NCBI RefSeq assembly: GCF_017356035.1 | Contig: NZ_JAFIQX010000001.1 | Coordinates: 682,001 to 746,000 of the forward strand | Origin: Longitalea luteola | Lineage (GTDB): Bacteria > Bacteroidota > Bacteroidia > Chitinophagales > Chitinophagaceae | Length of the DNA: 64,000 bases | Direction of reading: 5' to 3' | Made by a program: the position numbers and the translations under genes | Shown here: positions 7,675-61,350 of the stretch, piece by piece | Layout: each line of letters opens with the position of its first letter | Numbering within the stretch: the first letter of the stretch is position 1 | The notes under the pieces: model-generated | What the model was told of the DNA's origin: nothing | What the model saw: the letters and a program-made list of their open reading frames with translations, nothing else | Databases searched by the model: none

Positions 7675-7832
7675 TTTCTGATTTCGAGATTTCCGATTTA
7701 GGGGATTTAGGGATTTTGAGATTTAGGGATTTTGAGATTTATGCATTTGAAGATTTAGAAATTTAGAGATTTGTCGGAATGTAGAACAGAAGCAAATCTC
7801 AAAATCTCGAAATCTCGAAATCAGAAATTTCC
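7675..7832. repeat. Inverted octad array, GATTTAGG / AAATCTCG words
   Basis: It begins directly after the xylA stop. The left arm is a run of 8-bp words (GATTTAGG, GATTTTGA and variants). A loop around 7770-7793 follows, then a right arm of AAATCTCG words complementary to the left arm. The whole could form a long imperfect hairpin at the 3' end of the xylA message. Confidence 0.85.
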
Positions 7833-7906
7833 TCTGGTTTGCGAAGCATGCCATTATCACAAAGCAAACCATTAATAACGATTGTCTTAAACTAAATACT
7901 TGCCGT

Positions 7907-10697: not shown

Positions 10698-10750
10698 AAG
10701 TAAGAAGGTTGGTTACATAAAAGTTAAGCAAGAACCGGGCCGGGTGAGTT

Positions 10751-10942
10751 AATTAGCTAATGTGATAATTTGATAATGTGATAATGTGATGATGTGATGA
10801 TGTGATGATGTGCTAATGGAAATGCAGTTTAGGTGAGTGCTATGCATTAGGCTCTTGCCATAAGTACACACCCGGAAGATCAGACTGCCGAACCAGGAAC
10901 ATTATCACATCATCACATCATCTCATTGATTATTACTAGCTG
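10751..10942. repeat. Inverted octad element GTGATAAT (copy 1)
   Basis: The left arm begins at TTAGCTAAT and repeats GTGATAAT/GTGATGAT 8-bp words, then GGAAATGCAG, a variant of the shared core. A loop of about 75 nt follows. The right arm is the complement (ATTATCAC, ATCATCAC) and ends near 10942. Confidence 0.88.
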
Positions 10943-11112
10943 TTTTAAGTGATTTTGTGTATTTGGAATATTTGTAATGTCCATAACACCGTGGCGGCGT
11001 TAAATAGTAATTATTTTTCGGTTCTAACAGCAGGAATGATCTGATCTGCTCATAACTTATTAGGACTGATGATGAACACAGGGTGTTCCGGGATGCCGGG
11101 ATGCCCTTTTTG
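10943..11112 (+). ncRNA. Candidate small RNA region ending in an orphan terminator
   Basis: No coding frame of useful length is seen here, and no plus-strand gene lies upstream. Even so, a good intrinsic terminator for the plus strand closes the region. Promoter-like TTTG-rich sequence lies near 10975-11000. A short transcript of about 100 nt is therefore possible. This is a hypothesis from terminator position only. Confidence 0.3.
11081..11112 (+). terminator. Intrinsic terminator without an obvious upstream gene
   Basis: GGGTGTTCCGG pairs with CCGGGATGCCC (11 pairs counting G-T) around a GATG loop, followed by five T. Confidence 0.7.
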
Positions 11113-11268
11113 TTAATGTGATAATATGATAATGTGATAATTTGATAATGGAAATACAGATTGTATGAGCGCTGTGTGTCGGCATCCGGAGCAAAAGTAA
11201 AGCTTCGGAAAATCCGGCTGCATCACAGAAGCATTATCACATTATCGAATTATCACATCATCACATTG
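11112..11268. repeat. Inverted octad element GTGATAAT (copy 2)
   Basis: The left arm of GTGATAAT words is followed by the core GGAAATACAG at 11159-11168. A loop of about 60 nt follows. The right arm of ATTATCAC/ATCATCAC words ends one base before the stop codon of the serine hydrolase gene. Confidence 0.9.
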
Positions 11269-11269
11269 C

Positions 11270-12325
11270 TTACTTACAGTTTCCGCCAACGGCCTCATCT
11301 ACAGCGGCCTTGAACTGTAATGCGAAATCTTTTTTCTGTTCGTTCAATAACGACTTCACGAATATGATAGCGGCATAATTACGGCACTTGTCAATATACG
11401 GCCAGGTGCCGAACAAACCGGGACTGCTTACTACCGTACTGTTGCCGTTGGCATCTTCTTCCTGGATCCATTGACCCAAACCGTAGTGAAAGCCTTCTGC
11501 CACTTTTGGGGTATGTTTTACCGGTAGGTTGGTGAATTGCGGTTTCTGCATTTCTTCAATGGCTTTTTCACTGAGTATCCTTTTGCCCTCAAACATGCCC
11601 TTGTTCAATATCATCGATAAAAAGTTCATATAGTCATTGGCAGTACTGCGCGCGCCGCCGGAAGGATTGGGGGCATACCCGTTTTCATTCATAAAGGAGG
11701 TGGCCCTCATCTTCAACGGGCGTAATAACTTTTCCTGTATCAGCCGGTCGAACGGTTTCTTCGAGATCACTTCCAGTACGCGGCCGGCCACATTCAGGCC
11801 AATGGTGCCATAATGGAATTCAGTGCCTGCATTGTTTGAAATTTCTTTAGCGGCAAAAGCATTCACTTCTTCTTCCAGGTTCATGAATTTGCGGCGTTGT
11901 ACGATCTTTAGCAGGTTGCCTTTATCTTTTTCAATGCCGGTCGTATGCGTCAGGCACTGGCGGATGGTGACATGGCTTTTCATGTATTTGTCAAAAACGG
12001 GGAGGTACTTATTTACCGGGTCATCGAGGTCGAGTTTCCCTTCATCTACAAAGATCATCACCAGGGCAGCGGTCAGCCATTTACTGGCGCTGGCAATCGG
12101 GGCGGCTGTTTTGGCATTGAAATCAGTTCCGAGCTCTTTGGTGTAAATCACCCTGCCGTCTTTATACACCATGGCAACAAGGTCGTTGCCCAGGAGTTTC
12201 TGGTTCTTATTTAACAGGGCGTCCACATTGCTGAAGTCCGGTTGGGCGAACGAAAACTGAAAGATTAACAGGTATACGGTTAAAATACTGCAACTGAGGC
12301 AGATGGGTCTCATTTTTAATGACAT
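11270..12325 (-). CDS. Exported beta-lactamase-like serine hydrolase
   Basis: A 351-residue protein of the class C beta-lactamase / esterase / penicillin-binding fold. A signal peptide spans about residues 1-28; a start at the Met five codons in is equally possible. The nucleophile motif SxxK is S79-A-S-K82, followed by a Tyr motif in FHYGTIGLN near residue 166 and a C-terminal SSPGLFGTW that takes the place of the KTG/HxG box. Such proteins hydrolyse peptides, amides or esters in the periplasm; the substrate cannot be told. It is divergent from clpB and followed by a GTGATAAT element that touches its stop. Confidence 0.85.
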   Translation of the reverse strand: MSLKMRPICLSCSILTVYLLIFQFSFAQPDFSNVDALLNKNQKLLGNDLVAMVYKDGRVIYTKELGTDFNAKTAAPIASASKWLTAALVMIFVDEGKLDLDDPVNKYLPVFDKYMKSHVTIRQCLTHTTGIEKDKGNLLKIVQRRKFMNLEEEVNAFAAKEISNNAGTEFHYGTIGLNVAGRVLEVISKKPFDRLIQEKLLRPLKMRATSFMNENGYAPNPSGGARSTANDYMNFLSMILNKGMFEGKRILSEKAIEEMQKPQFTNLPVKHTPKVAEGFHYGLGQWIQEEDANGNSTVVSSPGLFGTWPYIDKCRNYAAIIFVKSLLNEQKKDFALQFKAAVDEAVGGNCK

Positions 12326-12465: not shown

Positions 12466-12515
12466 CTGGCTTGTATTCAATTAGCAAATTATCACATAAT
12501 CAAATTATCACTTTA
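12466..12515. repeat. Half element: core GAATACAAGC plus ATTATCAC arm upstream of clpB
   Basis: Read on the minus strand this has the GATAATTTG words and then GAATACAAGCC, matching the shared core of other elements. No partner arm is evident. It ends just before the clpB start codon. Confidence 0.65.
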
Positions 12516-16499: not shown

Positions 16500-16574
16500 A
16501 TGCCCATACTAAAAAAGGCAGTGTAGAAACACCGCCCTGAATGAATGAATGATTGCTTGCCATATGAAAAACTG

Positions 16575-16645
16575 CAGTTACGGGTGGATTCGAACCACCG
16601 TAAGAGGGTTTGCTAGCCTCTGCCTTCCCCCTCGGCCACGTAACT
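16575..16645 (-). tRNA. tRNA-like gene, Cys(GCA)-like but with unusual anticodon arm
   Basis: Read on the minus strand this folds as a 71-nt class I tRNA. The acceptor is a perfect 7-bp stem AGTTACG/CGTAACT. The D arm is GGCCG...AGGC with the GG pair. The variable region is four bases. The T arm is perfect (GGTGG/CCACC with TTCGAAT). The anticodon arm is GAGGC, loop TAGCAAA, CCCTC: the anticodon position reads GCA (Cys), but base 33 is A instead of the near-universal U, and pair 31-39 is C against C. The base after the acceptor is G, unlike the U73 usual for Cys. CCA is not encoded. It could be a variant tRNA or a decaying one. Confidence 0.6.
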
Positions 16646-19607: not shown

Positions 19608-19790
19608 AATGGTGAGTCGTGAAGGTTGAAGGAGAGTGAGGGGGGATGATGCTGTTACCGGGGGGTTCCGGTCACCGGGCAAAGATTTAAGCCTCCGGTC
19701 CCTGGTAACTGGTGCCCGGTAACTGGTAGCCTGCAACCTGTATTCCCATTAGCAAATTATCTCATTAGCACATTAGCACATTTTTCTTCA
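19608..19790. repeat. Composite intergenic array: GTGGTGA, GTTACCGG and ATTAGCAC words with shared core
   Basis: Three different word types follow one another: GTGGTGA/ATGGTGA heptads, GTAACTG/GTTACCG-type heptads in both orientations, and ATTAGCAC/ATTATCTC octads. ACCTGTATTCCC at 19738 is the shared core read on the minus strand. Different arm types are thus joined in one gap. Confidence 0.7.
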
Positions 19791-20164: not shown

Positions 20165-20199
20165 TTTGATTTATGTTTCTCATACTAAAGTAGAGACGT

Positions 20200-20338
20200 A
20201 ATTTCTGATTTCGGGATTTTGAGATTTGCTGCGGACTGAACGGTCTTAAAATCGCTAACTCTGTAAATCTCGAGATCCGGAAATCGAGAGATTGTCAAAT
20301 CCAGAAATCCCGCAATCCCGAAATCCCGCAATCAAAAT
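20200..20338. repeat. Inverted octad array GATTTCGG / AAATCCCG
   Basis: The left arm carries GATTT words. The loop (20228-20262) has no repeat. The right arm carries AAATCCNG/CAATCCCG words complementary to the left. The right arm abuts the TGA stop of the DoxX gene at 20338. Confidence 0.8.
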
Positions 20339-24783: not shown

Positions 24784-25222
24784 GAATAAAATCTGTTTTA
24801 TTTATAAATCTTCGAATCTGCAAAGGAAATCGATAAAGGCTGTCTACTTTTTTGAAAGGCGGCCCAAAAATAAGGTTTTGTTTTGATACACGTATTAAGT
24901 ACACGCTGACTCAAAAAAACACTAAAATTGTTTTATAAATCGATATTTTTTTTACGAAACACTATTTTTTTTAACCATTATTGCGGTTTTATTAAGGAAA
25001 CGGGTTTAGCTAACATTAGTTGCCCGTTAATGGCTTACAAGGTTCAAGATAATAAATGTGTTAGAAAGAAATGATTAATAAATTGAACAACCGTATGCAT
25101 AATACGATTCGTGTGTTGAATGAAAGAAAACGAAATACTAAATAATGATATGAAACGGTCATCCCCGTGTAAACAGGATGACAAGGTTCAATCTGGTCAA
25201 AGCGAATAATAATAATAATCAG
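24784..25222. other. Divergent gap between pfkA and the SDR gene
   Basis: Very AT-rich, with A and T runs near 24940-24990. It should hold both promoters. No gene and no repeat array were seen. Confidence 0.5.
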
Positions 25223-26107
25223 ATGAAAATATTGATCACCGGAGCGAATGGATTGTTGGGGCAGCATTTAACCAAATTATTACTCAGTAAAAATTATCAG
25301 GTCGTAGCCACCAGCCGCGGCGAATCGAGATTGCCCTTTGAGCCATCCGGTAATTATACATACCATTCCATGGATGTTGCCGATGGCTTTCAAACAGCTG
25401 CAGTCATGAGCCTTGAAAAGCCCGATGTAGTGGTACATGCCGCTGCAATGACCCAGGTTGATGAATGCGAGCTGCGCCCGCAGCAATGCGAACGCATCAA
25501 TGTGCAGGGCACATCTCAAATACTCACGGATGCTGAAACTTTTAGCAGTCACTTTATTTATATTTCTACCGATTTTGTTTTTGACGGCGAGAAGGGAAAT
25601 TATGCAGAAGAGGATGATCCCAGACCGATCAGCTTGTATGGGTTTTCAAAACTCCAGGCCGAAAGTATGGTGCAAACCTGTGAGATCCCATTTGCCATTG
25701 TGCGTACCTGTTTGGTGTATGGCAATCTGCTGAAAGGTACGCGCAGTAATATTGTAAGCTGGGTTAAAGAAAGTCTTGAAGCGGGCAAGACCATTCAGGT
25801 AGTAAGTGATCAGCTGCGCACGCCCACGTATGTGGAAGACCTGGCAAAAGGCATTGCCCTGATCATTGAAAAAAAAGCAACCGGGATCTTTCACATTTCC
25901 GGTAAAGACTGGTTAACGCCGTACGATATCGCTATCAGGACAGCCAACAAGTTTAATCTGGATGCCAGCAGGATCGTAAAAGTAGATGCATCTACCTTTA
26001 CACAACCCGGCCGCCGGCCATTAAAGACAGGGTTTGTAATTGAAAAGGCCAGGAAAGAATTGGGGTATGAGCCAATGTCGTTTGATGAAGGCTTAGCGCT
26101 AATGTGA
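25223..26107 (+). CDS. SDR-family sugar-nucleotide reductase-like protein (RmlD-like)
   Basis: A 294-residue protein from the ATG at 25223. The longer frame from 25178 would add an Asn run (NNNNN) ahead of the fold and is unlikely. The NAD(P)-binding GANGLLGQHL is at residues 8-17, VVHAAAMTQVDECE near residue 75, the catalytic YGFSK near residue 140, and a C-terminal GRRPLKTGF region as in dTDP-4-dehydrorhamnose reductases. There are no rhamnose genes beside it, so the substrate is uncertain. The last residues (ALM) and stop come from a GTGATAAT repeat element. Confidence 0.82.
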   Translation: MKILITGANGLLGQHLTKLLLSKNYQVVATSRGESRLPFEPSGNYTYHSMDVADGFQTAAVMSLEKPDVVVHAAAMTQVDECELRPQQCERINVQGTSQILTDAETFSSHFIYISTDFVFDGEKGNYAEEDDPRPISLYGFSKLQAESMVQTCEIPFAIVRTCLVYGNLLKGTRSNIVSWVKESLEAGKTIQVVSDQLRTPTYVEDLAKGIALIIEKKATGIFHISGKDWLTPYDIAIRTANKFNLDASRIVKVDASTFTQPGRRPLKTGFVIEKARKELGYEPMSFDEGLALM

Positions 26108-26252
26108 TAATGTGATAGTTTGATGATGTGATAATTCTTTAGGTGCAGCAGTCCTATTTTTTGTGGCCTCACGTGATGTCAGCCGATAAACAGCCCTGCG
26201 TCAGCAGTAGGCTTGTATTTCATTATCAAATTATCACATTATCAAATCAGCT
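26097..26252. repeat. Inverted octad element GTGATAAT (copy 3)
   Basis: It spans the whole gap between convergent genes and supplies both stop codons. The left arm GCTAATGTGATAATG contains the TGA of the SDR gene. The right arm ends in CAGCTAATT and contains the stop of the CtlX gene. The core, GAAATACAAGCC on the minus strand, is next to the right arm. Confidence 0.9.
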
Positions 26253-27161
26253 AATTGGTTTTAAAAAGATCTCCGCCAGCATACACCTTGCGCTGCCACC
26301 GCCATTGGTCTCAATGGTCGTTAATGGCGCATGCAGGATGCGGTTATACGTTTCCAGTTTTTTTACCTGCTCAGGACGTAAAGACTGATAGGCCTGGGTC
26401 GACATCACCAGTAATTTTTCACCCTCCTGGTTCTGCACCTGCAACATATTGCCGGCAAAATGATTCATTTGGTCAAAGCTGATATTGAACAGCTCCTTAC
26501 CGGTTTTGCCAATAATTCCCTGCACCATTTGATACTCTGCATGGTTCGGCAGCGATTCAAGGCAAATGACCACATACCGGTCTGCCACGCACATCATTAC
26601 ATTGGTATGATAAATGGCCTTGCCCTGGCCATCTACCGAAGTGAATAATACCGGCCGGTACCCCAGCTTTTTACAAAAATCATCCAACACCGCCTGATGC
26701 GTGCGGGGCGACAGGCAGGCATAAGCTATTTTATGCTCGCGGTCAAGCACCATACTACCCGTGCCTTCCAGGTACTGTTGCTCGTTCTCGTAACCGGTAA
26801 AATCCAAAGTATTGTGAATGGCAAATTGTTGTTGAAGTTGTTTTATCACCGGTGGTTTGCGTTCCTGCCGCCGGTTCTCCGCAAACATGGGATACAGGCA
26901 AATGGTATCAGGTTCATGAAAGGAGATCCAGTTATTGGGAAAAATAGAATCCGGTGTGTGAGGTTCGGGAGTATCGTCGATAACGGTGACATTTACCCCA
27001 TTTTGCTTTAGCAGGTTTACAAAATCATCAAATTCCACCTGGGCCTTTTCCTGGGCTGCCGCATCAGCGCCTGCAACCTGGAAGGCATTGTTCACCGCTG
27101 TTTGGGCATTAAAGCCGAAATTCACCGGTCTTATCATCAATAAATGGGCTGTTGTTTGCAT
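26247..27161 (-). CDS. ctlX: Citrulline hydrolase-like protein CtlX
   Basis: A 304-residue member of the amidinotransferase/arginine deiminase superfamily. Motifs: MIRPVNFGFN (9-18), DSIFPNNWIS near residue 70, GTGSMVLDR, the catalytic His region YHTNVMMCV near residue 163 and the nucleophile Cys in GGSARCMLAE at C293. Length and these motifs fit the CtlX group, which splits citrulline to ornithine. It follows an arginine deiminase-like gene with a 7-base gap, so the pair could turn arginine into ornithine. The last two residues and stop lie in a repeat arm. Confidence 0.85.
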   Translation of the reverse strand: MQTTAHLLMIRPVNFGFNAQTAVNNAFQVAGADAAAQEKAQVEFDDFVNLLKQNGVNVTVIDDTPEPHTPDSIFPNNWISFHEPDTICLYPMFAENRRQERKPPVIKQLQQQFAIHNTLDFTGYENEQQYLEGTGSMVLDREHKIAYACLSPRTHQAVLDDFCKKLGYRPVLFTSVDGQGKAIYHTNVMMCVADRYVVICLESLPNHAEYQMVQGIIGKTGKELFNISFDQMNHFAGNMLQVQNQEGEKLLVMSTQAYQSLRPEQVKKLETYNRILHAPLTTIETNGGGSARCMLAEIFLKPIS

Positions 27162-28781: not shown

Positions 28782-29936
28782 ATGCAATTTCAACTTACCG
28801 AGGAACACTTAATGATCCAGAAAGCTGCCCGCGATTTTGCCCAGTACGATTGCCTGCCGGGGGTTATAGAACGCGATGAGCACCAGAAGTTCCCGCGTGA
28901 ACAAATCCTGAAACTGGCTGAACTGGGTTTTATGGGCATGATGGTTAGTCCGGATTACGGCGGCGCCGGTATGGATACCATCAGTTATGTACTGGCCATG
29001 GAAGAGATCAGTAAGATAGATGCCAGCGTAAGTGTATGTATGAGCGTAAACAATAGCCTGGTTTGCTGGGGACTGGAAAAATTTGGTTCTGAAGAACAAA
29101 AACAAAAATACCTGGTGCCGCTGGCACAGGGCCGTAAAAACGGCGATTTGTACATAGGCGCCTTCCTGTTAAGTGAACCGGAGGCCGGCAGCGATGCTAC
29201 TTCGCAACGCACTTTTGCTGAAGACAAAGGCGATCATTACCTGTTGAACGGCACAAAGAACTGGATCACCAACGGAAGCTCTGCATCTGTATACCTGGTA
29301 ATGGCCCAGTCAGATGTTTCGAAAGGAAGCAAAGGCATCAATGTATTTATAGTAGAAAAGAACTGGCCAGGCGTAGCGGTGGGCGCCAAGGAAAATAAAC
29401 TCGGCATTCGCGGCAGCGATACCCACAGCATAACATTTACCGACGTAAAAGTGCCCAAAGAGAACAGGATAGGAGGCGACGGCTTTGGTTTTACGTTTGC
29501 CATGAAGACCCTGGCCGGGGGCCGTATCGGTATTGCATCACAGGCATTGGGTATTGCCAGTGGCGCTTATGAGTTGTCATTGAAATATTCCAAAGAAAGA
29601 AAAGCATTCGGTAAAGAGATCATGCATCACCAGGCCATTCAGTTCAAGCTGGCCGACATGGCTACCCGCATCGAATGCGCCCGTTTACTATGTTTGAAGG
29701 CCGCCTGGGAAAAAGACCAGCATCTTGATTATACATTAAGTTCATCCATGGCCAAAGTGTATGCCAGTGAAACTGCCATGTGGGTAACCGTGGAAGCGGT
29801 GCAGGTACATGGTGGTTACGGATATGTTAAAGAGTACCACGTAGAACGCCTCATGCGCGATGCCAAGATCACTCAGATCTACGAAGGCACCAGCGAAGTA
29901 CAGCGCATTGTGATCAGCCGCTCTATATTGAAATAA
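28782..29936 (+). CDS. Acyl-CoA dehydrogenase (short/medium-chain type)
   Basis: A 384-residue FAD enzyme that oxidises acyl-CoA to trans-2-enoyl-CoA in fatty-acid or branched-chain amino-acid breakdown. FAD and substrate motifs: LSEPEAGSDATS near residue 130, GTKNWITNGS near residue 155, RIGIASQALGIA near residue 245 and the C-terminal QIYEGTSEVQR with the catalytic Glu at about E368. Length is typical of butyryl-CoA dehydrogenase-like members. The chain-length preference cannot be read by eye. Its TAA is followed directly by a GTGATAAT repeat. Confidence 0.95.
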   Translation: MQFQLTEEHLMIQKAARDFAQYDCLPGVIERDEHQKFPREQILKLAELGFMGMMVSPDYGGAGMDTISYVLAMEEISKIDASVSVCMSVNNSLVCWGLEKFGSEEQKQKYLVPLAQGRKNGDLYIGAFLLSEPEAGSDATSQRTFAEDKGDHYLLNGTKNWITNGSSASVYLVMAQSDVSKGSKGINVFIVEKNWPGVAVGAKENKLGIRGSDTHSITFTDVKVPKENRIGGDGFGFTFAMKTLAGGRIGIASQALGIASGAYELSLKYSKERKAFGKEIMHHQAIQFKLADMATRIECARLLCLKAAWEKDQHLDYTLSSSMAKVYASETAMWVTVEAVQVHGGYGYVKEYHVERLMRDAKITQIYEGTSEVQRIVISRSILK

Positions 29937-29985
29937 TTAGCTAATGTGATAATTAGCTGATGTGATAATGGAATACAGATTAAAC
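29935..29985. repeat. Half octad element with shared core
   Basis: TTAGCTAATGTGATAAT followed by a second TTAGCTGATGTGATAATGG, then GAATACAG (the shared core). No right arm was found. It begins at the stop codon of the acyl-CoA dehydrogenase gene. Confidence 0.75.
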
Positions 29986-52488: not shown

Positions 52489-53451
52489 ATGAAAAGCGGA
52501 ACGATAAAGTCAGTGATCGACGTAAACTGGTTTATGGTAGCACCTGGCATATGGGGATTGCGCGATGCTTTTGTAAACATGTATTTCATTCATAATGCTG
52601 TTGATAAAAAATGGGTGCTGGTTGATGCCGGACTAAAGCGGTCAGCCTCCAAGATCAAGGAACTGGCTGAATACCTCTTCTGGCCCGAGTCAACACCGGC
52701 TGCCATTATTTTAACGCATGGACATTTCGATCATGTAGGTTCTGTGCTGGAACTCGCCAAGGAATGGGAAGTTCCGGTGTTTGCCCATTTGATGGAACTG
52801 CCGTATTTGTCGGGGCTGTCGTCTTACCCACCGCCCGATCCCTGGGCCGGCGGTGGCTTAATGACAGTAATGTCACCTGTATTCCCGAAAGGACCGATCA
52901 ATATCAGCGATCATATTCAGTTATTACCCGAAGATGGAAGTCTGCCCTACCTGCCAGACTGGAGGTATATTCATACGCCGGGGCATTCACCCGGGCATAT
53001 CAGCCTGTTCAGACGCCGTGACCGGGTATTACTGGCGGGTGATGCATTTGTAACTACCCGGCAGGAATCGGTTTGGTCGGTGATGATGCAAACTAAAAAG
53101 ATCACAGGCCCGCCGCGATATTTCACCAGCGACTGGAAGGCAGCCGCTAAATCGGTTAAAACGCTTGCAGCCCTGGAGCCGGATATAGTGGCGACAGGTC
53201 ACGGGCAGCCAATGAAGGGGGAAGAAATGCGGAAAATGCTCCACAATCTGGCAAATAATTTCAAGGAAATAGCGGTTCCTGCACATGGCCGTTATACCAG
53301 AGAAGCGGCCGTTGCCGATGAAGGCGGCGTAACCTATATTCCCAAGCCGGTGAGCAAGGTAGCGCCCGGGGTTGCAGTAGCTGCTGGAGTAGCAGTGCTG
53401 GCATTAACGGCGTGGTATGTTTATAAAAGCAGGAAAGCAAATTCAATTTGA
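52489..53451 (+). CDS. MBL-fold metallo-hydrolase with C-terminal membrane anchor
   Basis: A 320-residue protein. The zinc ligands are in THGHFDHVG near residue 76, HTPGHSPGHISLF near residue 165, the Asp in LLAGDAFVTT and VATGHGQP near residue 235. This is a metallo-beta-lactamase fold, likely a hydrolase of a thioester or phosphodiester. Residues about 295-312 form one hydrophobic helix (GVAVAAGVAVLALTAWYVY) followed by KSRK, so it probably hangs on the inner face of the membrane. The last two residues and the TGA stop lie within a GATAATTT repeat. Confidence 0.88.
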   Translation: MKSGTIKSVIDVNWFMVAPGIWGLRDAFVNMYFIHNAVDKKWVLVDAGLKRSASKIKELAEYLFWPESTPAAIILTHGHFDHVGSVLELAKEWEVPVFAHLMELPYLSGLSSYPPPDPWAGGGLMTVMSPVFPKGPINISDHIQLLPEDGSLPYLPDWRYIHTPGHSPGHISLFRRRDRVLLAGDAFVTTRQESVWSVMMQTKKITGPPRYFTSDWKAAAKSVKTLAALEPDIVATGHGQPMKGEEMRKMLHNLANNFKEIAVPAHGRYTREAAVADEGGVTYIPKPVSKVAPGVAVAAGVAVLALTAWYVYKSRKANSI

Positions 53452-53572
53452 TAATTTGATAATTTGATAATTCGATAATGCTTTAAAATCGTGAGGTCCG
53501 ATATTTTGCGGGCTTTTCGTATTAAGGCATTATCACATTATCACATCATCACATCATCACATCAGCTAATTT
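53443..53572. repeat. Inverted octad element TTGATAAT (copy 4)
   Basis: It fills the gap between convergent genes. The left arm has four TTGATAAT words, the first of which carries the TGA of the MBL gene. The loop carries CCGATATTTTGCGGGC. The right arm has ATTATCAC, ATCATCAC words and ends in CAGCTAATT, which carries the TAG of coaE. Confidence 0.92.
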
Positions 53573-54177
53573 TCGTTCGCTTTAATTTTAGCAGCAAGCC
53601 CTATTAATGTTTCATGCAACGTTATTACCTGCGGTATCACCGCCTGTTGCTCATCGTTATATACAACAAAATCGCATAGCCGCATTTTGATCACTTCCTG
53701 AATTTGTTTACCCATGCGGGCGAGTACCTGGTCGCGGGTAGAACCATCCCGTCTCATAGCACGTAGAATACGCAATGGAGTAGGGGCAGAAACCCCGATT
53801 ATATAATCCAGCTGATCCTGGGAGCCGCTTTCAAAGATCAGGGCCGCTTCCTTTATGGCATAAGGGGTGGTTTGTTTATGCATCCATTGTTCGGCATCCC
53901 GTATCGTGGCCGGGTGAACCAGAGAGTTCAGCAGTTCAAGCTTTTCTTTATCATTGAACACCTGGCTGGCGATATAAGGCCGGTCGAGCTGGTTGTTCTT
54001 GTAGGCCGCCGGACCGAAATGCCGGATGATCTGTTGCTGTAACAGCTCATCATCATTCATGATGCGTTTGGCGGCCTCGTCGGCATAGTATACCGGTATA
54101 CCCAGCACTTCAAATACTTTGGCCACTGTGCTTTTGCCACTGCCGATACCACCGGTTAGTCCAATACGTAGGGTCAT
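53566..54177 (-). CDS. coaE: Dephospho-CoA kinase
   Basis: A 203-residue kinase that makes coenzyme A from dephospho-CoA and ATP, the last step of CoA synthesis. The P-loop GLTGGIGSGKST is at residues 7-18. Then come VYYADEAAKRIMN, IKEAALIFESG near residue 108 and the lid region LRIMRAMRRDG-like (residues about 130-145). Length is typical. Its TAG stop is in a repeat arm, and its 5' side adjoins a large tandem repeat. The yajC gene lies upstream on the same strand. Confidence 0.95.
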   Translation of the reverse strand: MTLRIGLTGGIGSGKSTVAKVFEVLGIPVYYADEAAKRIMNDDELLQQQIIRHFGPAAYKNNQLDRPYIASQVFNDKEKLELLNSLVHPATIRDAEQWMHKQTTPYAIKEAALIFESGSQDQLDYIIGVSAPTPLRILRAMRRDGSTRDQVLARMGKQIQEVIKMRLCDFVVYNDEQQAVIPQVITLHETLIGLAAKIKANEN

Positions 54178-54179
54178 AG

Positions 54180-54458
54180 ATGCAGGTTTGGGATTGCAAG
54201 TTACAGGTTACAGGTTACAAGTTGCCGGTTACAGGTTGCCGGTTGCCGGTTACCGGTTGCAAGTTACAGGTTGCAAGTTACAGGTTACAGGTTGCAAGTT
54301 ACTGGTTACAGGTTACAAGTTGCCGGTTGCCAGTTACCGGTTGCCGGTTACCAGTTACCGGTTACCAGTTACCGGTTACCAGTTACCGGTTACCGCCGGT
54401 TACCAGTATCGGTTGCCAGTTACCGGTTGCCGGTTACCGGTTGCCGTCTGCCGTTTCA
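54180..54458. repeat. Long tandem heptad array GTTACCG/GTTGCCG/GTTACAG
   Basis: About 280 bases of uninterrupted 7-bp words (GTTACCG, GTTACCA, GTTGCCG, GTTACAG, GTTACAA) lie between the coaE start and the terminator of yajC. Because three heptads make 21 bases, all forward frames stay open and give a 7-residue peptide repeat of the type LPVTGYR. This is not taken as a gene. Confidence 0.93.
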
Positions 54459-54464
54459 GGCACA

Positions 54465-54956: not shown

Positions 54957-55085
54957 AAATGTGATAATTCGATAATTTGATGATGTGATAATGGCCTTAT
55001 ATGAAAAGCCTGCAAAATATCGGCCCCATGAATTTAATGCATTATCTAATTATCATATTATCACATTATCACATTAGCTAATCAG
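54957..55085. repeat. Inverted octad element GTGATAAT (copy 5), inverted relative of copy 4
   Basis: The left arm has GTGATAAT/TCGATAAT words. The loop contains GAAAAGCCTGCAAAATATCGG. The right arm has ATTATCAC words and TTAGCTAATC next to the DUF1573 stop. The loop is nearly the reverse complement of the loop of the element at 53443-53572. Confidence 0.92.
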
Positions 55086-55519
55086 GTTTTAGGTTTCACC
55101 ACTTCAACATCAAAATGCACCTTATGGTTCTGTGTGCCTTTCGTGTTGGCGTCTACAAAGATGTCCTTGCTGTTATGTCCTTCCCGGCCATCGCTGTTGA
55201 AAGAAGCTTTGATCACACCTTCAGCACCCGGTGCAATGGGCTCTTTGGGTGGCTCGGCGGCTGTACAGCCGCAACCAGGCCGAACGGCCAGGATGATCAG
55301 GGGTTTATCGCCTGTATTCCGGAAACGGAAAGAAACATCCAGTTTTTGCCCTTCATTGATCTTGCCATAATCCCTGGTTGAATCGATCCATTCTATGGTC
55401 GTGAATTTGCTGCTGTCGAGCGCCTCTTTGGGAACCGCAGCCGCGCCATGTGGCGCTTTGTCGGCATAATCACAGCCAATGACGGAGGCTGCTACAACTA
55501 AGGCCAAAAAGTATTTCAT
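55082..55519 (-). CDS. DUF1573 lipoprotein
   Basis: A 145-residue protein from the ATG at 55519. The longer frame adds ten polar residues and hides the signal sequence. A signal peptide ends in a lipobox VIGC near residue 15. The mature part is one DUF1573 domain: IEWIDSTRDYGKINEGQKLDVSFRFRNTGDKPLII, then VRPGCGCTAAEPP and GVIKASFNSDGREGHNSKDIFV. This family forms an Ig-like fold and is common in Bacteroidota envelopes; its role is unknown. It follows nusB on the same strand. Confidence 0.9.
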   Translation of the reverse strand: MKYFLALVVAASVIGCDYADKAPHGAAAVPKEALDSSKFTTIEWIDSTRDYGKINEGQKLDVSFRFRNTGDKPLIILAVRPGCGCTAAEPPKEPIAPGAEGVIKASFNSDGREGHNSKDIFVDANTKGTQNHKVHFDVEVVKPKT

Positions 55520-56885: not shown

Positions 56886-57173
56886 ATGGCTAAGAAAGTA
56901 GAAGCTATAAACGTTACCCCACTGCATGACAGGGTAATTGTTAAACCAGCTAAAGCGGAAGAGAAAACCGCCGGTGGTATCATCATCCCGGATACTGCTA
57001 AGGAAAAGCCTCAGCGTGGTACAGTAGTAGCTGCCGGTCCTGGAAAAAAAGATGAGCCGGTTACTGTAAAAGTTGGTGACGTAGTTCTGTATGGCAAATA
57101 TGCAGGAACTGAGATCCAGATCGAAGGCGATGACCTGTTGATCATGCGTGAAAGCGACATCTTAGCAATCGTA

Positions 57174-57176
<3 letters not shown>
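56886..57176 (+). CDS. groES: Co-chaperonin GroES
   Basis: A 96-residue subunit of the heptameric lid of the GroEL cage. The mobile loop [20 protein letters not shown] (residues about 21-40) and the C-terminal [25 protein letters not shown] strand set are complete. It lies 157 bases before groEL, with a GTGATAAT element between them. The pair is probably one transcript, though the element could weaken or process it. Confidence 0.97.
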
Positions 57177-58971
<1,795 letters not shown>

Positions 58972-60829: not shown

Positions 60830-61090
60830 GGCTTTTACCTTTTGTTTACCTCCTGGTTACCTCTGTATTTCGCAATTAGCTGACTTGCAACAAGTCAATT
60901 TCTATTTCTTTACCCTTTGTTTACCTCCTGGTTACCTCCTGCTTAGGTATTCACTAGGTTTTCTTTACCTTTTCTTTACCTCTTTTTCTCCTGTTTATTA
61001 CCACTGCCTGCCTGTTCGTTTCCTTTTCTTTTGATTACCTTTTTGTTCGCGTTATATTACCTTTTCTTTTTCATTACCTTTTTTGTACCT
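60830..61090. repeat. Pyrimidine-rich 11-bp word array GTTTACCTCCT
   Basis: Words of the type TTTTACCTTTT, GTTTACCTCCT and GGTTACCTCCT occur in two blocks and then degrade to CTTTACCTTTT. At 61094-61110 the complement GGGTAAACAAAAGGT appears, so a weak inverted arrangement exists. Confidence 0.7.
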
Positions 61091-61227: not shown

Positions 61228-61350
61228 AGCAATTGCTGATTTTGAGATTTATGATTTTGAGATTTCTATAAGTTCAGCAATCTAACAAATCTCGAAATCT
61301 CGAAATCTCGAAATCTCGAAATCTCGAAATCCCGAAATCTCAAAATCAAT
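61228..61350. repeat. Inverted octad array GATTTTGA / AAATCTCG
   Basis: The left arm is GATTTTGA/GATTTATG words. The loop is about 61269-61287. The right arm is at least five AAATCTCG units in exact 8-bp register. It ends about 20 bases from the stop of the downstream minus-strand gene. Confidence 0.88.

Follow-up and report, generated by a model that had tools for sequence, protein, structure and literature searches.

An octamer element at positions 26097-26252 of the window (the whole stretch of 64,000 nucleotides that was analysed, C11:682001-746000) was observed as a stop-to-stop feature between an rmlD-like SDR gene and the gene for CtlX, a citrulline hydrolase. The SDR gene (25178-26107, + strand) ends in ...L-A-L-M-TGA, and the convergent CtlX gene (26247-27161, − strand; NCBIfam NF046062) in ...K-P-I-S-TGA. 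The closest named relatives of this CtlX are those of N. caeni (83%) and N. yeongjuensis (80%); the genome belongs to a Niastella-like soil bacterium of the Chitinophagaceae. The element is a full one, consisting of inverted tandem arrays of an octamer (AATGTGAT) on either side of a core. The left arm (26100..26136, + strand; TAATGTGATAATGTGATAGTTTGATGATGTGATAATT) has the unit order TAATGTGA TAATGTGA TAGTTTGA TGATGTGA TAATT; the right arm (26222..26256, − strand; ATTATCAAATTATCACATTATCAAATCAGCTAATT) has the order ATTATCAA ATTATCAC ATTATCAA ATCAGCTAATT. The core between them (26137..26221, 85 bp) ends in CTTGTATTTC beside the right arm. The predicted fold of the element is -55.7 kcal/mol.

The TGA of the SDR gene (26105..26107, +) lies within the first array unit, in GCTAATGTGATAATG, and that of CtlX (26247..26249, −) inside the right arm, in CAGCTAATT read from the opposite strand. 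The first-pass annotation took this to mean that the repeat supplies both stop codons. Both genes do end in the arms, but the SDR TGA is probably native, since the same stop, following LM, LL or LI, is present in genome G005, which carries a heptamer element here, and in G008, which carries none. The SDR C-terminus in N. caeni and G009 reads LMG*/FMG*. The CtlX tail beyond AEIF/AEVF differs from species to species, and it is therefore probable that the element set the CtlX end. The gap itself is occupied by octamer elements in G000, G001, G003 and G004 (a GCAAAT variant in G004) and by different inverted 7-mer arrays in G002, G005, G007 and G009; these heptamer arrays were read by eye, and several of them fall under the automatic threshold. 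The gap in G008 is empty, and the two genes overlap by 15 bp.

Octamer arrays were found at other gene ends of the window as well. One (29934..29969, +) starts at the native TAA of an acyl-CoA dehydrogenase gene (28782-29936). A full element (53445..53572; arrays at 53445-53480 and 53530-53572) separates the genes of a metallo-beta-lactamase-fold hydrolase (stop 53449-53451, +) and CoaE (stop 53566-53568, −). Another (54958..55082; arrays at 54958-54993 and 55040-55082) has its right arm adjoining the stop of a DUF1573 protein gene (55082-55519, −), and one more (57179..57325; arrays at 57179-57214 and 57283-57325) fills the gap between groES (stop 57174-57176) and groEL (start 57334). A further full element, at 11109..11267, has its right arm ~5 bp away from the stop codon of a gene on the minus strand (11270-12325). 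The same terminal motif had been said to carry or abut stop codons at 29935, 53446, 53566, 55082 and 57176. The exact motif, TTAGCTAAT, was confirmed at 29935, 55082 and 57176; position 53446 reads CAATTTGATAAT and position 53566 reads CAGCTAAT. At 29936 and 57176 the stop is native and is conserved in element-free species, so that the element abuts it and does not supply it. Several counter-examples had been overlooked: a full element away from any stop codon, 48 bp from a start (10745..10924); a lone right arm in a divergent gap, immediately in front of a start codon (12474..12515, −), orthologous in G001, G002, G004 and G007 and absent from G003 and G005; and arms in degenerate form that lie upstream of genes, at 19742 and 47352.

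Repeats of other kinds share the window. A second octamer family (AAATCTCG/GATTTCGA), also with inverted arms, occurs at 7680-7835, 20194-20330 and 61246-61331; in the gap 20164/20338 it is common to four species, a GAAGTA heptamer stands in its place in G005 and G007, and the gap of G003 is only 5 bp long. A heptamer array of ~300 bp (GGTTACC/GGTTGCC; 54164-54460) lies in the gap upstream of coaE and overlaps spurious open reading frames, and a period-11 array (TTTACCTCCTG; 60834-61004) is among the few intergenic arrays with a period other than 7 or 8. ARAGORN called a tRNA-Ala at 16574-16645 with the anticodon AGC, which is unusual for bacteria. Searching the window with the Rfam covariance models gave a tRNA as the sole match and none for the element.

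The element belongs to a large family of extragenic Niastella repeats that are capable of forming hairpins. The family has a common architecture: two octamer arrays (AATNNGNN, in most cases AATGTGAT) lie in inverted orientation on either side of a core that varies, and the inner edge of an arm often has GAATACAG. The unit profile trained on the genome was [GT][TA]G[AC]T[AG]AT. A three-unit pattern gave 196 + 201 matches in the 7.30-Mb genome as against 0 for the reversed-pattern control. Placement statistics were obtained for 2.42 Mb (C11, C22 and part of C33), about one third of the genome, in which 1,797 genes were called with a home-made frame-specific Markov model. This third contained 217 non-redundant arms, which make up 144 elements; 58 of the elements are full, and 133 are located in gene gaps. 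An inverted partner was found around the core for 123 of the 217 arms, compared with 36 in the outside control, and AATAC occurred at the inner edge in 76 and at the outer edge in 13. Cores had similarity matches in 20 of 49 cases versus 2 among shuffled cores. The full elements folded with a median z of -3.3 relative to dinucleotide shuffles.

To place the elements relative to genes, we compared the types of gap that they occupy. An element was present in 42 of 271 convergent, 82 of 1253 codirectional and 9 of 270 divergent gaps; with the window excluded, the odds ratio for convergent versus divergent occupancy was 6.5 (p = 4e-7). The octamer family is the array family most tied to 3' ends, and heptamer arrays are spread more evenly across gap types. 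An element is faced by 166 gene 3' ends, of which 53% were within 10 bp of the element's edge; random placement in the same gap gave 32% (maximum 39% in 200 draws), and random intergenic positions gave 4%. Facing starts were within 10 bp in 25% of cases, compared with 28% under the same-gap null, so that proximity to starts is explained by short gaps. The 3'-end result was replicated on C11 (58% versus 29%) and on C22 and C33 (48% versus 36%). Of the 51 elements in roomy codirectional gaps, 22 were no more than 10 bp away from the stop, compared with 5 that were this close to the start. The residual gap was ≤ 10 bp for 10 of 42 convergent elements (0.13% expected by intergenic length; 10% by equal gaps, binomial p = 0.007) and for 16 of 82 codirectional ones (0.18% by bases; 10.6% per gap, p = 0.012). 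The excess over the per-base expectation indicates that the elements accumulate per gene end and not per base. The first-pass annotation had predicted that edge-to-stop distances would depart from random, and over the 2.42 Mb they do. The association with gene 3' ends is real and goes beyond chance in the third of the genome examined.

These data bear on the simplest alternative, namely that AT-rich repeats with stops in all frames seem, by chance and composition, to carry the stop of any neighbour. The forward octamer unit does have stops in all three frames (TAA/TGA/TAG), a necessity that has also been stated for the TAACTGA repeats of Beggiatoaceae (PMC4679880). Such an account leaves unexplained the edge distances that persist after conditioning on the gap, the gap-type bias and a register spike at -7 (28 of 92), and we consider it highly improbable. 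The same-gap null, with its replication on other contigs, led us to reject chance as the source of the stop overlap.

Because the forward unit has stops in every frame, any reading frame entering an array is closed immediately, and the element then seems to be the source of its stop. We sorted the 84 stops within 20 bp of an element edge: 46 lay before the array with a spacer, 28 were a TAA that is also part of the array's initial TAAT, and 10 were read into the array. C-termini were compared across seven sister species at sites that included GroES, acyl-CoA dehydrogenase and gaps 15, 30 and 31. At most of these sites the stop was native and the C-terminus was conserved with or without an element. 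The acyl-CoA dehydrogenase end RSILK* (stop at 29936) is identical in eight species, array or not, and the GroES end LAIV* (stop at 57176) is kept in 8 of 8. At gap 30, one C-terminus is retained across species as KFVW*/KIVW* or a small variant such as KFVY* in G005, the other as GEYK*/GEYR*, and the two stops are 0 bp apart in G007 and 2 bp apart in G008, which have no element, as against 72-142 bp where arrays are present. The C-termini at gap 15 are kept likewise, with 5 bp between them in G003 versus 88-173 bp in other species. Judged from these comparisons, stop supply is mostly an appearance, the touched stops being mostly the genes' own. The general claim that the element provides stops is not supported: only 10 of the 84 clearly read into an array, and most of the orthologous C-termini checked are native.

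The elements turn over between species. In the groES-groEL gap, G000 and G001 share an orthologous element, G002 and G004 have related arrays, and G003 has a possible remnant; in G005, G007, G008 and G009 the gap is a leader of 47-60 bp with no element. With an element the gap measures 146-157 bp (157 bp in the window, 56886-57334). Across ten genomes of the genus the octamer pattern is patchy, with hundreds of matches in five and 0 in two. Gaps shared by different array families numbered 83, compared with 87 by permutation, which is no excess. We therefore claim turnover and no proven hotspot: repeated occupancy of a gap is only what permissive gaps would give.

The placement at 3' ends could mean that the elements are selected there as transcript 3'-end signals, acting as bidirectional terminators or insulators and supplying convergent stops. 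This would agree with the strong 3'-end association and the preference for convergent over divergent gaps, with the different array families that hold the SDR-CtlX stop-stop junction in sister species, with the stable folding of the long inverted arms and with some cores that, by eye, resemble a GC hairpin followed by a T run (e.g. at C22:930299). Yet the convergent stops of gap 30 manage with 0-2 bp and no element in two sister species, occupancy of the tight codirectional gaps, which are probably operonic, is no lower than the per-gap expectation, the AT-rich arms have no consistent U tract when the sequences are read by eye, and co-occupancy of gaps by different families does not exceed permutation. 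Moreover, elements sit in the groES-groEL and aro gaps, and a strong terminator there would cut off the essential genes that follow. Strong termination is unlikely on account of this placement inside the groESL and aro operons, and we regard the 3'-end-signal explanation as a whole as improbable. The earlier suggestion that insertion next to stops is selected for a role at transcript ends does not follow from the pattern, as insertion preference together with purifying selection gives the same one; the placement inside the two operons also argues against termination.

A second alternative is growth in place. Here, polymerase slippage by 7 or 8 nt from seeds at gene ends (TAATGTGA-like ends, CAAATTNN leaders) would build the arrays, and template switching from arm to arm would yield the inverted copies, with no transposition. 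The intergenic tandem arrays do have almost only the periods 7 (203) and 8 (139) and their multiples, while a Markov control gave 0 arrays and 2.0 Mb of coding sequence about four. At least 10 unit families coexist side by side in the genome, the first unit often merges with the TAA (28 of the 84 nearby stops), CAAATTNN octamers are already present in the groEL leader of element-free species, and the SDR end TTA ATG TGA fits a unit. However, slippage does not account for dispersed copies that have cores and the GAATACAG inner edge in common, for hundreds of copies of one unit family in one genome, or for the 70-150 bp gained at once between abutting stops. We consider growth in place rather unlikely, if less so than an origin as 3'-end signals. 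The periods themselves are not confined to this genome: in the surroundings of ctlX at 80 further loci from Bacteroidota, 14 period-7 and 7 period-8 arrays were found, at lower density, with one of period 6 and none of period 5 or 9-13.

The reading that we favour, and consider moderately probable, is that these are REP/MITE-like mobile or duplicated repeats that insert or survive at cistron ends, most often flush against existing stops, and not elements whose evolution was driven by the provision of stop codons. Dispersal is supported by the inner-edge motif GAATACAG, the core similarity of some copies and the patchy distribution in the genus. On this reading, mobile or duplicated units would disperse, with fixation confined almost entirely to the boundaries of cistrons. 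They may insert at, or be joined by microhomology to, TAAT/TGAT-like sequence at the ends of open reading frames, and insertions elsewhere in genes would be lost. The joins with TAA/TGA-like ends and with CAAATT leaders suggest microhomology or target preference of this kind. The analysis shows the anatomy of the elements, their dispersal, their placement and their turnover between species; we infer the mode of mobility, as we do any function in RNA. No target-site duplication was recognisable at the elements, whose flanks are too diverged between species, and no parent autonomous element was found. Only two genes are flanked by outward arms and could be candidates for a parent element; both are small.

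We also looked for a transposase tied to the octamer family and found none. A single-copy Y1_Tnp gene lies within the aro operon, immediately downstream of inverted arrays that are of the heptamer and not the octamer type. It scored 23.1 bits against the NCBIfam RAYT model (cut-off 80). Each of ten genomes of the genus has one strong Y1_Tnp match, and in the bacterial family the domain occurs in 225 of 299 genomes (75%). Linkage to a RAYT was rejected: the sole Y1_Tnp gene fails the RAYT model, and such genes are so widespread in the family that its presence says little. As a candidate for mobilisation it is a lead only. The gaps of this operon (DAHP synthase, Y1_Tnp-domain gene, aroB, aroA) contain three different array elements, at L272:132-250, 1349-1470 and 2930-2987.

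In mRNA, a long AT-rich stem would be expected directly after the stop. Such a stem could protect the upstream message at its 3' end or delay the ribosome during termination, with no strong termination of transcription. Protection of 3' ends or slowed termination has been proposed for enterobacterial REP sequences and is reported for some of them. Duplex energy was -20.4 kcal/mol within elements versus -19.3 kcal/mol between elements (p = 0.07), and the arms co-varied only at the subfamily level (r = 0.59 for GCTAAT versus GATAAT, nothing at two other positions). This weak gain and the subfamily-level correlation leave selection for an RNA stem unsupported, and we do not claim conserved arm pairing.

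If confirmed, these observations would mean that intergenic space and 3' UTRs are built and replaced wholesale by short repeats aimed at gene ends. The same gene pair with a 0-bp gap, element A or element B in sister species would then be a natural experiment, by which the effect of a 3' hairpin on mRNA stability, operon stoichiometry and convergent transcription could be measured. It would also raise the question of which process yields arrays of period 7 and 8 only.

Like MITEs, the elements are small, non-coding and dispersed, have terminal inverted repeats and vary in presence at orthologous sites; neither a target-site duplication nor a parent transposon or fixed terminal sequence was identified for them. 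The likeness to REP, BIME and REPIN sequences lies in the hundreds of short extragenic copies and in inverted pairs around a spacer with predicted hairpins. Like the present elements, REPs and REPINs show enrichment in convergent and unidirectional gaps and are seldom found in divergent gaps (PMC3733652, PMC3116915). In contrast, a REP is an imperfect palindrome of 20-40 bp with a GTAG/CGTC tag, whereas the arms described here are tandem octamer arrays, on which neither tag was found. REPIN doublets fit a random extragenic model (PMC3116915), while placement here is per gene end, and REPINs are mobilised by RAYTs, whereas the sole Y1 transposase gene of this genome reaches 23 bits against the RAYT cut-off of 80.

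Heptanucleotide intergenic repeats are known as bacterial long simple sequence repeats, with TAACTGA arrays in Beggiatoaceae, cyanobacteria and some Bacteroidetes (PMC4679880). They resemble the arrays of this genome in their period-7 tandem intergenic arrangement, forward stops in all frames, occasional overlap with gene ends and patchy distribution (PMC4679880). They are, however, mostly unpaired direct arrays of one unit upstream of starts, whereas the present arrays form inverted pairs at 3' ends, have units of both 7 and 8 nt and belong to many families in a single genome. A literature search gave no relevant account of arrays of this kind from Niastella or Chitinophaga. We raise, as a tentative proposal, that Niastella and its relatives harbour an undescribed class of mobile foldback elements with arms of 7- or 8-nt units that target stop codons, often at the exact stop-stop or stop-start junction, and that unrelated unit families independently colonise the same junctions in sister species, making new 3' UTRs. 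With its 8-nt units and inverted arms, the SDR-CtlX element lies outside the LSSR/TAACTGA class, and heptamer elements coexist with it in the same genome.
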